DNA of 35,101 nt from positions 1 to 35,101 of the IMG/VR virus record IMGVR_UViG_3300022220_000013, one strand, 5' to 3'. The notes below the pieces were generated by a model. The model was not told the origin of the DNA, did not search any database, and was given only the letters and a program-made list of their open reading frames with translations. Source of the DNA: a virus. The position numbers and the translations under genes were made by a program. Numbering within the stretch: the first letter of the stretch is position 1; every line of letters begins with the position of its first letter. Shown here in pieces: positions 20,446-27,668 of the stretch.

Positions 20446-20682
20446 ATGGCCTTATCCTCAGAAATGCAAGCGCAAGTAGAACAGCAGAACGCGACAGAAG
20501 ACAATCGAGCTGCTAATCAAGCTGCGTCAGAAGCGAAGCGAGCCAAGCTAGACATGGTACGCATGGCTAAAGAAATATTGGTAGAGAATCGCCGCACTCA
20601 AGCAGCAGCAGACGCTACAAACATTACAGCAAGCGCAGTCATTGGACTTGCCACAGAATTAACTGCGTTCGTAAATAGCTAA
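20446..20682 (+). CDS. Small helical protein after the fibre, 78 aa
   Basis: The ATG at 20446 has a CAGGAGA ribosome site. The product is helical and Ala/Gln/Arg-rich (MQAQVEQQNATEDNRAANQA, SEAKRAKLDMVRMAKEIL), with a mildly hydrophobic C-terminus (ASAVIGLATELTAFV). No family is recognised. Its location between fibre and oxygenases and its abutting of the next ATG suggest it belongs to the fibre unit. A fibre chaperone or attachment factor is conceivable but unproven. Confidence 0.6.
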   Translation: MALSSEMQAQVEQQNATEDNRAANQAASEAKRAKLDMVRMAKEILVENRRTQAAADATNITASAVIGLATELTAFVNS

Positions 20683-21261
20683 ATGGAAGCCTACTCGTAC
20701 TTCTCGTCTCCAATCTATCGTGAAGAACGACCGGAGTGGGTGGGCAAGACTTTAGAGCATAGTCAGAAGTATTACGACCAGACAGATGATTCGGTGGTTA
20801 AGCAAACCGAACACATGGGCAGCGATCCTGATCTTGAATACTTGACCTCTTACTTTCGAGACAGAGGTGTCAGTATCTTAAAAGACCAAGGTTATCTGAC
20901 TAACGAATACGAGTTTTATGTTTCGGCTATGTGGGCGCAAGAGTTTGGGTGTGGCGGTGGCAATATCATGCATGTCCACGGCGATAGTCAGATTTCTGGC
21001 TTTTACTTTTTAGAAGTTTCTGAAAGCGGTTCCTATCCTATATTTGATGATCCTCGCTCTGGTAAGAAAATGTCAGATTTGTTTTCGGAACAGAAAGAAG
21101 AAGTAAACATGGCGACTCAGCAGATACATTTTAATAATGTACAGTCTGGCACGATGATGCTATTTAACTCTTGGCTACCGCACATGATTACTGGTAATCA
21201 ATCTGAAACTCCTACAAAGTTTATTCATTTTATTTTGTCGCAAAGGAAAAGGTTTATTTGA
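20683..21261 (+). CDS. 2OG-Fe(II) oxygenase-like protein (first of three)
   Basis: The 192-aa product has the layout of the putative 2OG-Fe(II) oxygenases with an HxHxxxxxSGxYYL signature (Pfam 2OG-FeII_Oxy_5 type). H97, H99 and D101 lie in IMHVHGDSQISGFYFL, followed by FDDPRS at 121-126. A distal histidine is in FNSWLPHMI (H167). The usual 2OG-binding Arg is replaced by Lys in PTKFIHF (K179). Such enzymes hydroxylate amino-acid side chains or nucleobases using 2-oxoglutarate and oxygen; the substrate is unknown. The gene abuts the preceding one, and its stop overlaps the next ATG (ATGA). Confidence 0.8.
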   Translation: MEAYSYFSSPIYREERPEWVGKTLEHSQKYYDQTDDSVVKQTEHMGSDPDLEYLTSYFRDRGVSILKDQGYLTNEYEFYVSAMWAQEFGCGGGNIMHVHGDSQISGFYFLEVSESGSYPIFDDPRSGKKMSDLFSEQKEEVNMATQQIHFNNVQSGTMMLFNSWLPHMITGNQSETPTKFIHFILSQRKRFI

Positions 21262-21845
21262 TGCAGCATTTGCTGACACCCTATTCACGGAAGAGAGAGC
21301 CGTTTGCGTGGTGGGATGGAGCGTTTACCGAGGAGCAGCTTGACTGGCTTCAACAGAAAGCCAAGGAGGCTACTGAACAAGCTCAAGTGGGCAATGGGGC
21401 TGACGGACAAGTATCCGAATCTGTTCGCAGATCAGAATTAAATTGGCTCTCTAAAGACGCAGAGTGTTCGTGGGTTTTTGAAGTTTTGTCTCATGTTGTC
21501 TCAAGTATTAATGCGGAGTATTTTGGGTTTGATCTTACTGGTTTCGGAGAGCCTATACAGCTAACTAATTACCATGAGTCTCGACAAGGAACCTATAAGT
21601 GGCATCAAGACTTTGGGGCATCTGGATCGTCAAGAAAGCTCTCACTGGTATTGCAATTATCAAACCCAGAAGACTATGAGGGCGGCGAATTACAAATACT
21701 TACTACAGGTCAGCCTAGCTCTATGCAAAAGAAGCGAGGACTTATAACAGTGTTTCCTGCGTGGACATTGCACCAAGTAACTCCGGTAATAAAAGGCACA
21801 AGGCAAACATTGGTAACATGGGTATCGGGGCCAGAGTTTAAATGA
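21261..21845 (+). CDS. 2OG-Fe(II) oxygenase, PKHD/prolyl-4-hydroxylase type (second of three)
   Basis: The start at ATG 21261 (overlapping the previous stop) is preferred over the TTG three bases upstream. The 194-aa protein has a complete catalytic set: H115 and D117 in YKWHQDFG, H171 in FPAWTLHQVTPV, and R181 in KGTRQTLVTW for 2-oxoglutarate. The double-stranded beta-helix is bracketed by YEGGELQI (139-146). This is the prolyl-4-hydroxylase/PKHD branch. The substrate is likely a protein residue. The short overlaps with both flanking oxygenase genes imply joint translation. Confidence 0.88.
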   Translation: MQHLLTPYSRKREPFAWWDGAFTEEQLDWLQQKAKEATEQAQVGNGADGQVSESVRRSELNWLSKDAECSWVFEVLSHVVSSINAEYFGFDLTGFGEPIQLTNYHESRQGTYKWHQDFGASGSSRKLSLVLQLSNPEDYEGGELQILTTGQPSSMQKKRGLITVFPAWTLHQVTPVIKGTRQTLVTWVSGPEFK

Positions 21846-22438
21846 ATTTTGAGTATAGAGACTTTATTGGCGTATTTTCTGACGTATTCCCAGAGGGATT
21901 CTGCGAGCATCTTATAACTGAGTTTAATCGAAACAAAAACTTGGGAGCGGGGTCAGACAGACAGAAAGGCGAAGGCGCAGATAAACATATAAAAAACGAT
22001 TATCAGATATGCGCCAATGGCAAGAATATAAACTTTGAGCCGTTTAATGATAACGATACAAGAAATATGTTTTTTAAAGGTTTACAGCACTGCTTTGATG
22101 CTTATGCCGAGGAGTTTTCTCCGTTAAAAAATACAAACATAAACTGCAACAATATGAAGATGCAGGAAACCTCTACTGGAGGCGGCTACCATGTGTGGCA
22201 CGGCGAACAAGGCAACGGTGATCAAGCAAATCGAGGCTTGGTTTATATGCTTTATTTGAATACGCTCCCTACAGAAGCCAACGGAGAGACAGAGTTTTTA
22301 TATCAACAGCGAAGACTAAATCCTGTTGAGAATACAATGGTGCTATGGCCCGCAGCGTTTACACACGCGCACAGAGGAAATCCTGTTTATGGCGATAACA
22401 CAAAATATATAGTGACCGGATGGTTTTACCACGAGTGA
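21842..22438 (+). CDS. 2OG-Fe(II) oxygenase-like protein (third of three)
   Basis: The 198-aa product shows a HxE variant of the iron site, H120 and E122 in YHVWHGEQ. It is followed by GLVYMLYLNTL and GETEFLYQQ, then a distal histidine in WPAAFTHAHRGN (H175 or H177), and K188 in TKYIVTGWFY as the likely 2OG anchor. The arrangement matches oxygenases of marine phages that use Glu instead of Asp, in my recollection. It overlaps the second oxygenase by four bases. It is followed after 7 bases by the glycine-rich adhesin gene, suggesting a linked job. Confidence 0.8.
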   Translation: MNFEYRDFIGVFSDVFPEGFCEHLITEFNRNKNLGAGSDRQKGEGADKHIKNDYQICANGKNINFEPFNDNDTRNMFFKGLQHCFDAYAEEFSPLKNTNINCNNMKMQETSTGGGYHVWHGEQGNGDQANRGLVYMLYLNTLPTEANGETEFLYQQRRLNPVENTMVLWPAAFTHAHRGNPVYGDNTKYIVTGWFYHE

Positions 22439-22445
22439 GTAAATT

Positions 22446-23441
22446 ATGCCTATAGGTACTAGCAAAATTGGTTTAATGGGAGCAGGTGTAGTTCCCGGTG
22501 GTTCTGAAACTTTTAACACAAGCGGAACTTTTTGCGCCCCCGCAGGAGTGACTCTAGTTAATTTAACTGGGCTAGGAGGTTCCGGCAATGCGGGGGGTAC
22601 TGGAAATGCGGGTGGTACTGGAGCGGGGGGAAGCGGTGGTTATGGGGGAGGAGCTAACGGTAGCCTTGGGGGTGGAGGTAATACCGCCACCGCTCCCGCA
22701 CAAGCGGGTGCTTCAGGCGGCGCAGGCGGGGGAGCAGGTAACTCTGGTACACCCGGAAATCCGGGCGCTTCTTCTTCTGCATTTTGCCTTTCTTTTTCAG
22801 GTGGCGCGGGTGGCGCGGGTGGCGCGGGGGGCGCACAAGGAACTGCGGGCAATGCGGGCAGTACCGGGGCATCTCAAAATTCTACAAATGGAAATGCGCC
22901 CGGAGGGAATAGCGGCACTCCCGGTGGAGGATATGGGTATAGAGGCTGCTGCTCCTATGCCTACTACGCCGGAAACATAGTTACACAAGGCCGAGGCGGT
23001 ACTGGCGGTGGTGGCGCGGGAACTATAAACTCCGGCGATGGGCCTTCTATAAATACTGTACTTTGGAACTCCGCTTCTAGTGGTGGTAACACAGGAGGCG
23101 GTGGTGGCGGTAGAGGGGGCTGGACGAACTCTAATAGCACCTATTCAAGCAACGCCATAAACTATCCTCCCGCTATTGCGGGATCAGTGTCGGGCGCGGG
23201 AGGTGGCGGCGGCGGCGGGGCTGCAAGATCAGTTTCTCGGGACAGTTGCTTTCTCGGGTATGGACAAGGAGGAGGAGGAGGCGGCGGTGGTGGCCGTGGT
23301 GGGGCGGGAAGTGCCGGAAGTGCCGGAAGTGCCGGAAGTGCGGCAAACCCTACAACGCATAATTGTGTTTCTATAGTCGGCGGGTCTTCGTATCCTGTAA
23401 CAGTAAATGGTCAAGTAAACATATCTTGGTGTCCACAGTAG
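22446..23441 (+). CDS. Glycine-rich adhesin-like tail protein, 331 aa
   Basis: The N-terminus has a beta module (GSETFNTSGTFCAPAGVTLV, residues 19-38) of the kind that precedes glycine-rich domains in phage tip proteins. Residues 40-300 are mainly GGxGG runs, which could form a polyglycine-II-type bundle as in phage S16-like adhesins. Cysteines are scattered (GCC, DSC, HNC, WCP). The C-terminus, GGSSYPVTVNGQVNISWCPQ, resembles the ends of cyanophage structural proteins. No signal peptide is present. A role as a receptor-binding tip is inferred from composition and position next to the fibre. Confidence 0.7.
   Translation: MPIGTSKIGLMGAGVVPGGSETFNTSGTFCAPAGVTLVNLTGLGGSGNAGGTGNAGGTGAGGSGGYGGGANGSLGGGGNTATAPAQAGASGGAGGGAGNSGTPGNPGASSSAFCLSFSGGAGGAGGAGGAQGTAGNAGSTGASQNSTNGNAPGGNSGTPGGGYGYRGCCSYAYYAGNIVTQGRGGTGGGGAGTINSGDGPSINTVLWNSASSGGNTGGGGGGRGGWTNSNSTYSSNAINYPPAIAGSVSGAGGGGGGGAARSVSRDSCFLGYGQGGGGGGGGGRGGAGSAGSAGSAGSAANPTTHNCVSIVGGSSYPVTVNGQVNISWCPQ
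22801..22836 (+). repeat. 9-bp tandem repeat (GTGGCGCGG) in the adhesin-like gene
   Basis: Three exact copies of GTGGCGCGG (22801-22827) plus a degenerate fourth code for GGA triplets. The unit is in frame, so copy-number change would lengthen or shorten a glycine bundle without a frameshift. Confidence 0.7.
23307..23342 (+). repeat. 9-bp tandem repeat (GGAAGTGCC) in the adhesin-like gene
   Basis: Three exact copies and a fourth with one change code for GSA triplets near the C-terminal end of the glycine-rich region. Near-identity at the DNA level indicates recent expansion by slippage. Confidence 0.8.
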
Positions 23442-23443
23442 TT

Positions 23444-23899
23444 ATGAACAAAAAAGATTTTGAAAAAGAGTTTCAAGAAAGGCAGCAACAGCAGCAGCTT
23501 GAAGCGTTAGACTCCAACAGGAATAGAGCGCAGTCAGTTAGCATAGGTATGTCGGGGTCTGGTACTACTGAAATAACAATGCGTGGAGTAAATGGCACTT
23601 TTTTGTGGAACGTGTATCAACCTGTGCAGGTTACAGAGTTTATCCATCAACTAGCCGCCAGTATCGGTTGTCAAATACATATACAACCTAGAAACGATTT
23701 TGGTAGTTGGCGTGAGTGGCGAGAACCAAGTGAAGTTGAAAGATTGCATCTAAACGGACACCCTCCGTTTGCAGGTCAGCAATTAGGACGCGAGAAGGTT
23801 GGACTGTTACCCAAACAAAATACGGAGCAAGTAAATGTGGCAACTAAAAAGACTGTCAACAAACGAACCACTAAGCGCAGCAGGGCCGCTACCAAATAA
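23444..23899 (+). CDS. Hypothetical protein, 151 aa
   Basis: ATG 23444 is preferred over an upstream non-ATG start inside the previous gene. The N-terminus is a Gln/Glu helix (EFQERQQQQQLEAL). A beta segment follows (SIGMSGSGTTEITMRGVNGT), then TEFIHQLAASIGCQIHIQPR, and finally a strongly basic tail (KKTVNKRTTKRSRAATK). No family is recognised. It overlaps the next gene by 65 bases in another frame. The basic tail could bind nucleic acid. Confidence 0.6.
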   Translation: MNKKDFEKEFQERQQQQQLEALDSNRNRAQSVSIGMSGSGTTEITMRGVNGTFLWNVYQPVQVTEFIHQLAASIGCQIHIQPRNDFGSWREWREPSEVERLHLNGHPPFAGQQLGREKVGLLPKQNTEQVNVATKKTVNKRTTKRSRAATK

Positions 23900-26446: not shown

Positions 26447-26826
26447 TGTTGTCCTCGCTGACTGCCTTGGTCGGCCCAGTAACAAATTTGCTAGACCAGT
26501 TTGTTGAGGATAAAGACAAGAAAAACGAGCTTGCTCATCAGATTGCAACGATGGCTGATAAGCACCATCAAGAAATCATGCTGGCGCAAATCGCTGTCAA
26601 TAAAGAAGAAGCCAAAGGAAACTGGTTTCAGTCTTCTTGGAGGCCAGCAACTGCTTGGGTCTGCGTAGCAGGTTTTGCGGTGAACTTTCTTATCTCTCCT
26701 TTAGCTGCGCCTTTTGGTATTGAGGTTCCGCAAGCTGATACTACGGTTATGCTGCCTGTATTAACTGGCCTGCTCGGCTTGGCAGGAGCTAGATCCTACG
26801 AGCGTGTTAAAAATGTAGGGAAATAA
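26446..26826 (+). CDS. Holin, 3TM superfamily type
   Basis: The 126-aa product starts with GTG, overlapping the preceding stop. An N-terminal amphipathic segment and a charged helix (FVEDKDKKNELAHQIA) precede the signature SSWRPATAWVCVAGFAVNFL at about residues 63-82. A hydrophobic segment ending LLGLAGARSYERVK follows. This WRPxTxWVC...NF and GLxGxRxYEK pattern is that of the GTA_holin_3TM family. The protein would permeabilise the inner membrane at the end of infection so that the endolysin encoded just downstream reaches the wall. Confidence 0.85.
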   Translation: MLSSLTALVGPVTNLLDQFVEDKDKKNELAHQIATMADKHHQEIMLAQIAVNKEEAKGNWFQSSWRPATAWVCVAGFAVNFLISPLAAPFGIEVPQADTTVMLPVLTGLLGLAGARSYERVKNVGK

Positions 26827-26828
26827 TT

Positions 26829-27038
26829 ATGACCGACAAGGTGATTGAGTTTCCAAGAACAAAAACGCTCGATGATATGTACAGTAATATGCACTCGCTT
26901 GAATTGGAATTGACAGATTTAAGCACAAAAGCCATCGAATTAGGGTTGCCTATTTATAGTATAGTCGGCGTATTACAAGGTCAGGCACATTTTTTATTAG
27001 CGTTAGAGGCGGGAGAGTTTGACGATGACGAGGAGTAA
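26829..27038 (+). CDS. Hypothetical protein between holin and endolysin, 69 aa
   Basis: ATG 26829 lies two bases after the holin stop. The product is helical and acidic (DDMYSNMHSLELELTDLSTK, ending EAGEFDDDEE), with no membrane segment. Its 3' end overlaps the endolysin start by 14 bases. It is not a recognisable spanin or antiholin. Conservation of the position would be needed to link it to lysis. Confidence 0.6.
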   Translation: MTDKVIEFPRTKTLDDMYSNMHSLELELTDLSTKAIELGLPIYSIVGVLQGQAHFLLALEAGEFDDDEE

Positions 27039-27444
27039 GCGTCTAAGCGATATGCTTATTAAACATGAAGGGAAAAGGAACAAGCCCTACGAATGCACAG
27101 CAGGCAAGCTGACTATAGGGGTTGGGAGAAACCTTGATGACATGGGGCTTACTGAAGACGAGGTTTTGTATCTTTTAGACAACGATATTCAGCGGTGCGA
27201 CACCGAGCTATTACATAACTTTAAGTGGTATTCTGATTTATGCCGAGCCAGACAGGATGCTTTGATTAACCTTTGTTTTAACATAGGTATCACTAGATTG
27301 TTGACGTTTACACATTCTTTATCTTACATGGAAGCCGAAGACTACGAGAAAGCAGCAGACGAATTCTTAAACTCTAGGTGGGCTGAGCAAGTCGGTAACC
27401 GTGCTATAGAAGTTACCGAGCTAATTAGAACAGGGCGATACTAA
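27025..27444 (+). CDS. Endolysin, GH24 lysozyme
   Basis: This T4-lysozyme-type muramidase cleaves the peptidoglycan glycan backbone. ATG 27025 has a GGGAG site 9 bases upstream and is chosen over a TTG two codons earlier. The catalytic triad is E15 in LIKHEGKRNKPY, C24 in YECTAGKLT and T30 in KLTIGVG. The aspartate position of T4 lysozyme (D20) is Cys here, which is common in natural GH24 enzymes. The 139-aa length covers the catalytic domain only. There is no signal-arrest or signal peptide, so export depends on the holin. Its stop overlaps the convergent DUF3310 gene. Confidence 0.92.
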   Translation: MTRSKRLSDMLIKHEGKRNKPYECTAGKLTIGVGRNLDDMGLTEDEVLYLLDNDIQRCDTELLHNFKWYSDLCRARQDALINLCFNIGITRLLTFTHSLSYMEAEDYEKAADEFLNSRWAEQVGNRAIEVTELIRTGRY

Positions 27445-27668
27445 GGTTTCACATTCTCCAACTTCTGCAACTCAGACTCTATGATGAAGTCGCAGAACTG
27501 CTTTATCTTTCGCAGGTCTTCTACCCCTCCCTTCTCTCTCCATCTGGTAGCGTATTTAACAATACAACCCTCCGCAAAGGGCAACTGGTTAGCCATGATG
27601 TATTCAATAGGCTGAATTTTCATCTTTTGGTAATGGTCGCCAGCTACTTGGTAATCTGTTGATTTCAA
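27441..27668 (-). CDS. DUF3310 protein
   Basis: This 75-aa protein has the DUF3310 signature: DHYQ (11-14), IQPIEYIMANQLPFAEGCIV (18-37), KYATRW (38-43), and KGGVEDLRKIK. The family occurs in many phages; a link to nucleotide metabolism has been suggested, but the role is not established. The TTG start at 27668 is supported by GGAGG seven to eight bases upstream. It overlaps the upstream stop as TTGA. It is the last gene of the leftward operon, and its stop overlaps that of the convergent endolysin. Confidence 0.85.
   Translation of the reverse strand: MKSTDYQVAGDHYQKMKIQPIEYIMANQLPFAEGCIVKYATRWREKGGVEDLRKIKQFCDFIIESELQKLENVKP

Follow-up and report, generated by a model that had tools for sequence, protein, structure and literature searches.

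Why should an aquatic tailed phage carry three different 2-oxoglutarate (2OG)-Fe(II) oxygenase genes in a row between its tail fibre gene and a gene for a glycine-rich protein? This arrangement occurs in a 35,101-base IMG/VR virus record (IMGVR_UViG_3300022220_000013; the whole stretch was analysed and is called the window below), which is from a P22-like podovirus as judged by its head genes (portal, phrog_156; head closure, phrog_578; major head protein, phrog_283) and whose portal is closest to that of Pseudoalteromonas virus vB_PspP-H6/1 (42%). We refer to the three enzymes as E1, E2 and E3, to the glycine-rich protein as G, and to a fourth enzyme encoded by most relatives as E4. Few unexplained genes of marine phages are as common as those for 2OG-Fe(II) oxygenases, which are usually classed as metabolic genes that alter the host's use of nitrogen or iron.

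We propose that this enzyme set acts on G, a reading to which we give about an even chance. The observations behind it are the gene order, the intact active sites, the cassette behaviour of E4 and G, a proline content of G that tracks E4, the fold of the E4 model, and an enrichment of glycine-rich open reading frames (ORFs) in the neighbourhood of the enzymes.

Results

Three oxygenases in one coupled unit

Relatives of the locus were collected by three IMG/VR scans and a neighbourhood survey (about 90 contigs); a dereplicated set of 59 loci, 34 of them with E4, was used for residue conservation and trees. As judged from profile matches and conserved residues, E1–E3 are real 2OG-Fe(II) oxygenases whose genes form a single coupled unit flanked by those for the fibre and G, in agreement with a preliminary description of this DNA: the ORFs are present, and all three pass the Pfam cut-off of 27 bits (E1, 50.6 bits, PF13759, E-value 2.7e-13; E2, 55.8 bits, PF13640, 9.2e-15; E3, 45.6 bits, PF13640, 1.5e-11). 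The stop codon of a short upstream gene, S78, directly abuts the ATG of E1; one base is shared by E1 and E2 (TGATG); and the E2/E3 overlap spans four bases (ATGA), a length kept in 59/59 relatives. The overlaps had been described as ATGA-type, which holds for E2/E3 and not for E1/E2.

The PKHD site described for E2 and the HxE site with K188 described for E3 both stand: H116, D118, H172 and R182 of E2 are invariant in the relatives (H115/D117/H171/R181 when counted from the ATG at 21261, which is the start of E2; the ORF list begins the gene at TTG 21258), as are H120, E122, H175, H177 and K188 of E3, where the lysine replaces the usual Arg. The site of E1 had been read as HxHxD. H97, H99 and H167 are indeed invariant, but position 101 is S, N, P or K in relatives; this variation rules out D101 as an iron ligand, the motif becomes HxH...H, and E1 is without the usual acidic Fe ligand at that site.

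Solved relatives are 3bvc and 2rg4 for E1, 3dkq (E 1e-13) and PiuC (9ghl) for E2, and prolyl-4-hydroxylase (P4H) structures for E3 (E 7e-5 to 3e-4); the nearest are protein hydroxylases or members of unassigned families. E2 and E3 both match phrog_61. Profile-profile comparison gave no significant link for E4 with E2, E4 with E3 or E1 with E3, and common ancestry of the classes therefore rests on fold and motif.

E2 is closest to the PKHD-type proteins PiuC/YbiX, which are associated with iron uptake in the literature, and it shares their HxD...H...R site and alignment. This likeness would suit enzymes whose substrates are small metabolites or molecules of the host surface, perhaps serving to alter the receptor or to prevent superinfection, and placement in a tail operon, which fixes late expression only, would suit them as well. 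However, E2 was rejected as a PiuC/YbiX equivalog (67 bits vs an NCBIfam equivalog cut-off of 143) and has no iron-uptake context; neither the window nor the gene order surveyed in relatives shows a transporter, synthase or other metabolic gene beside the enzyme set; and action on host molecules does not predict that E4, G and the downstream gene D151 are exchanged as a unit (see below). We regard it as quite unlikely.

A fourth enzyme with a predicted prolyl hydroxylase fold

In 34/59 relatives an additional gene of about 195 codons, E4, lies between E3 and G, which in the window are separated by seven bases. The preliminary description considered a tandem triplet unusual, a view that has to be given up: four enzymes are usual in the relatives, and such arrays are common in marine phages (cyanophages and pelagiphages).

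PHROGs files E4 as “ferrochelatase” (phrog_2954 and phrog_3531). It is not recognised by Pfam, and searches of Pfam and NCBIfam gave no ferrochelatase match. H104, D106 and H156 of E4 (HxD...H) are invariant in the 34 relatives, and the HxD, the distal H and a nearby R are kept in every member of the E4 alignment, cyanophage and pelagiphage members included. A sequence search of the PDB returned nothing reliable, and the relation surfaced by fold search only: the best match of the AlphaFold model (predicted local distance difference test score, pLDDT, 93.7) is the Pseudomonas putida prolyl-4-hydroxylase 4iw3 (E 1.1e-9; template modelling (TM) score 0.66–0.68), with PHD2 and further 2OG oxygenases next. 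Of the 50 fold matches listed, almost all bear the name of a 2OG/Fe(II) oxygenase, and none is a ferrochelatase. The model thus places E4 in the double-stranded beta-helix fold of P4H and PHD enzymes. We rejected E4 as a ferrochelatase on both the family profiles and the listed fold matches; families 2954 and 3531 are predicted to be 2OG oxygenases of prolyl-hydroxylase fold, and their label is probably wrong.

A long E4 ORF was found in 17/72 diverse loci. In the sole one examined in full (L188, 9953–11074), an E4 domain is naturally fused to a PKHD domain of the E2 type, which hints at a shared substrate.

G is a probable tail-tip adhesin

G contains 31–33% Gly, and its Gly-X-Y runs are rich in Gly-Asn-Pro, Gly-Asn-Ala and Gly-Gly-Ala. 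The longest run in the window comprises nine Gly-x-x triplets, a length reached in 7/1000 shuffles; we rejected G as a collagen, as nine triplets are not a long uninterrupted Gly-X-Y repeat. G has no sequence relatives in the phage collection or the PDB and no Pfam, PHROG or NCBIfam match. Its model (pLDDT 90.4) has no assigned helix and only weak PDB fold matches, the top three being a mycobacteriophage (Bxb1) tail tip, the Pam3 cyanophage fibre (7ypx; rank 2, not significant at E 0.067) and the human ALK glycine-rich domain; viral fold matches are better, most of them being tail fibre, minor tail, glycine-rich-domain or unnamed phage proteins. On the strength of this model, G is likely but not proven to be a tail-tip adhesin. 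Lys and Asp make up about 1% of G each and are thus poor candidates for modification, leaving Pro and Asn; hydroxylation of Lys or Asp as the main activity on G is disfavoured.

E4 is exchanged together with G and D151

The order fibre, S78, E1, E2, E3, G, D151, D123, D74 is shared across the contigs. E1 and E2 accompany E3 in 91/92 loci with enough upstream sequence, and a glycine-rich ORF directly follows E3 (or E4 where present) in 90/93 loci with enough downstream sequence, which shows the enzyme genes travelling with the glycine-rich gene and supports the preliminary description in this respect.

We mapped the presence of E4 on trees of the neighbouring genes, with shuffled labels as baseline. 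E4 changes state twice on the D151 tree, 4 times on the tree of whole G and 6 times on that of the first 60 residues of G, compared to 8 times for E1, 12 for E2, 12 for E3, 11 for D123, 8 for D74, 14 for the fibre C-terminus and 17–19 on average for shuffled labels; likewise, in pairwise distances E4 correlates best with D151 (0.66) and then with the G N-terminus (0.58). Both results indicate that E4, G and D151 travel together among phages with differing E1–E3. As far as gene trees can tell, E4–G–D151 moves as a cassette, with E4 following the lineage of G and D151 and not that of E1–E3. Block exchange alone would give this pattern, which shows association and not catalysis.

D151 occurs in two deep sequence types that track the presence of E4 almost perfectly; it could be an adhesin chaperone or adaptor. 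The D151 type tracks E4 more tightly than G does (2 changes vs 4–6), and all these genes lie in one gene run, as would be expected if the enzymes modified another nearby virion or assembly protein (F1, S78 or D151) and G were linked merely as a fellow tail gene.

Proline content of G tracks E4

Modification of another nearby protein fits less well with the composition of the candidate targets. G contains 8.7% proline with E4 vs 6.6% without (p 2.8e-6), the strongest difference of the 20 residues tested, whereas the fibre, E2, E3, D151 and D123 show no E4-linked proline shift; G alone thus shows a strong shift with E4 in a residue that is a plausible target. Phylogenetic regression of proline on E4 over the E3 and E1 trees gave p 1.6e-7 to 2.5e-9 (the Brownian regression on the D151 tree was degenerate). 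Four E4-positive loci (L017, L040, L102 and L105) have a G N-terminus of the E4-minus type, yet their proline content is 8.7–10.3%, and G of the window, without E4, has the lowest proline of all (4.2%). An exception is L050, which is E4-minus with 10.2% proline in G; an independent-pairs sign test found just 1 supported pair, too few to inform. The prolyl-hydroxylase fold of E4 and the proline signal in G were obtained independently and agree.

The same enzyme classes in other phages

The 50 kb examined of pelagiphage HTVC033P contain just two glycine-rich ORFs, and genes of the E2, E1 and E4 classes come immediately after them; in cyanophage S-CAM8, the single glycine-rich ORF in 150 kb lies 1.6 kb before an E2–E4 array. 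Among diverse E4 loci, a second enzyme class lies within 1 kb of E4 in 54/72. Glycine-rich ORF density is 0.082 per kb within 4 kb of E4 vs 0.021 farther out (p 8e-4), and 36 such ORFs occur in 440 kb near E4 vs 0 in 480 kb around 80 uvsX control loci (p 3e-12). In cyanophages S-PM2 and S-RIM32, the E3, E2, E1 and E4 class genes come after a short tail fibre gene, and the enzymes flank that gene and a tail assembly chaperone gene, an arrangement that again suits modification of some other tail or assembly protein; the enrichment of glycine-rich ORFs near E4 counts in the opposite direction, and we consider such a protein an unlikely main target.

The distribution also bears on the published proposal for cyanomyoviruses, in which the enzymes tune cellular 2OG to drive nitrogen-response transcription during infection (PMC3037559; PMC9602691). 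The same classes occur in the P22-like podovirus group and in a pelagiphage, where NtcA logic is not expected, and control of the 2OG level leaves the three or four divergent active-site types, the glycine-rich linkage and the proline tracking unexplained; as an account of this set it is very improbable.

Cyanophage genes named “DNA endonuclease” or “DNA endonuclease V” lie inside 2OG arrays (L168:10927–11442; L169:10250–10759). The S-CAM8 gene of this type weakly matches the E2 model, and E2 and E3 of the window match PHROGs 2297 and 274 of those names; these matches suggest that the array “endonucleases” may be further 2OG enzymes.

A scan of bacterial genomes with E4 returned five metagenome-assembled contigs only and did not identify a host. 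One of the five, L257, which is binned as Anaerolineales, has a glycine-rich ORF and E1, E2 and E4 classes; its segment 1510–5389 holds a glycine-rich ORF, two E1-like ORFs, E2 and E4, and the contig is probably viral in a bacterial bin.

Coordinates of the locus and of genes cited from other phages are collected in Table 1. The fibre F1 also has a weak match to the carbohydrate-binding module CBM_5_12 (E 6.5e-4, below the cut-off) and a long Ala/Ser/Thr-rich stretch.

Table 1. Positions in the window, and in other loci where a locus is named.
Feature	Position	Strand	Basis or remark
F1, tail fibre, 638 aa	18513..20429	+	phrog_38058 tail fiber, E 2.5e-37; C-terminal domain conserved upstream of E1 in relatives
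S78, 78 aa, no known family	20446..20682	+	between fibre and E1
E1, 2OG-Fe(II) oxygenase, PF13759/TIGR02466 type, HxH...H	20683..21261	+	profile match, conserved residues, solved relatives
E2, PKHD-type 2OG-Fe(II) oxygenase	21261..21845	+	PF13640, phrog_61, structure relatives, residues
E3, P4H-superfamily 2OG-Fe(II) oxygenase, HxE...H	21842..22438	+	PF13640, phrog_61, P4H structures, residues
E3/G junction, site of E4 in 34/59 relatives	22439..22445		neighbourhood survey; E4 absent here
G, glycine-rich protein, 331 aa, 33% Gly, 4.2% Pro	22446..23441	+	Gly-X-Y triplet runs; probable tail-tip adhesin, proposed substrate
D151, 151 aa, no assigned function	23444..23899	+	sequence type co-segregates with E4 presence and G type
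E4 examples, PHROG “ferrochelatase”	L010:11749-12330; L168:8513-9118; L171:8762-9403
S-CAM8 2OG oxygenase genes of the replication cluster	L262:12504-13079, 26777-27475, 37140-37730		one between recombinase and primase/helicase

Discussion

Our results suggest that E1–E3, joined in most relatives by E4, are a hydroxylase set linked to the adhesin and made from the coupled genes that also encode G. Its most likely target would be G, and perhaps the fibre partner of G too, hydroxylated in the host cytoplasm before or during tail assembly: E4 would most likely hydroxylate proline in triplets of the Gly-Asn-Pro-Gly type in G; for E1–E3, whose substrate we infer from their location, the probable targets would be other residues of G, the best guess being Asn in Gly-Asn-X; and the likely benefit would be an altered receptor-binding surface or a stabler polyglycine-II bundle. 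From the observations above we infer catalysis, substrates and benefit alike. The preliminary description had already suggested hydroxylation of the fibre or adhesin; the neighbourhood enrichment, the E4 fold and the proline tracking favour that idea, and the Lys and Asp it included among the targets are poor candidates in G. The idea is partly supported, and best so for E4 and proline, although the window is without E4.

Several observations weigh against hydroxylation of G by the set. On the tree of G's own N-terminus the proline effect weakens to p 0.025, and to 0.21 with Brownian motion, so that simple sharing of a cassette may account for the link between E4 and proline; small proline shifts also occur in E1 and D74 (p 0.0025 and 0.014); adjacency within one phage group partly reflects shared ancestry; and L150 and L151 have E2–E3 with the glycine-rich ORF upstream, not directly downstream. 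Farther afield, a glycine-rich ORF lies within 6 kb in only 33/75 diverse E4 loci (many contigs are short), MW202545 has a lone E1-like gene far from fibre genes, and S-CAM8 carries three further 2OG genes in its replication cluster. The last two cases indicate that not every phage 2OG gene belongs to the glycine-rich association, and the S-CAM8 replication genes probably have a separate role. Such genes in replication clusters are what enzymes that oxidise bases of phage DNA or RNA would lead one to expect, but the set studied here lies among tail genes and its nearest solved relatives are those named above, which makes base oxidation the least probable of the readings we considered.

Animals hydroxylate their collagen, X-Pro-Gly being the classic P4H site, and Eriksson reportedly described a P4H of the virus PBCV-1 in 1999. 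The set proposed here resembles the collagen and PBCV-1 systems in combining a virus-encoded enzyme of the P4H superfamily with a candidate substrate rich in Gly-X-Y, Gly-Asn-Pro being common in G; it differs in belonging to a tailed phage, and in having three or four distinct oxygenase classes in tandem, and the likeness of G is to a polyglycine-II adhesin, not to the triple helix of collagen. In a Baltic study, viral P4H was remarked on with PBCV-1 as the precedent, and its use was termed cryptic (PMC9301287). Salmonella phage S16 gp38 and cyanophage Pam3 gp24 are tail-tip adhesins with glycine-rich extended loops at the fibre end, according to the part of PMC9608196 on which we draw, which mentions no hydroxylation for either; G may be of this type, but it has no significant sequence or fold match to them.

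Cyanophage and pelagiphage genes share PHROG families 61, 81, 2954 and 3531 with our set, and their 2OG oxygenase and “ferrochelatase” annotations are adjacent. Sullivan et al. explained the cyanomyovirus 2OG oxygenases by control of 2OG and NtcA (PMC3037559), an explanation repeated in PMC9602691, where phage S-SCSM1 is reported to carry 24 2OG oxygenase genes whose functions were not investigated; in pelagiphage and time-series papers, “ferrochelatase” is paired with “2OG-Fe(II) oxygenase” among the auxiliary metabolic genes, each ferrochelatase being reported to adjoin an oxygenase (PMC9599517; PMC11561400). Whereas these published readings invoke 2OG level control or haem, our data point to a P4H-fold oxygenase tied to glycine-rich tail proteins. 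The open-access literature searched yielded no report linking phage 2OG oxygenase genes to glycine-rich adhesins, and within it such a post-translational adhesin-maturation system has not been described before in bacteriophages.

In a wider form, which we advance tentatively and at somewhat less than even chances, several tailed-phage lineages may use sets of three to five protein hydroxylases to decorate glycine-rich receptor-binding tips, with enzyme class matched to residue, enzyme and adhesin exchanged as a cassette, and the “ferrochelatase” acting as the prolyl hydroxylase. If maturation of the tail tip is indeed their task, a large gene family of marine phages would have a different role from the metabolic one usually given to it, the “ferrochelatase” label of recent ecological studies would be corrected, and there would be a way to test how host recognition works chemically.

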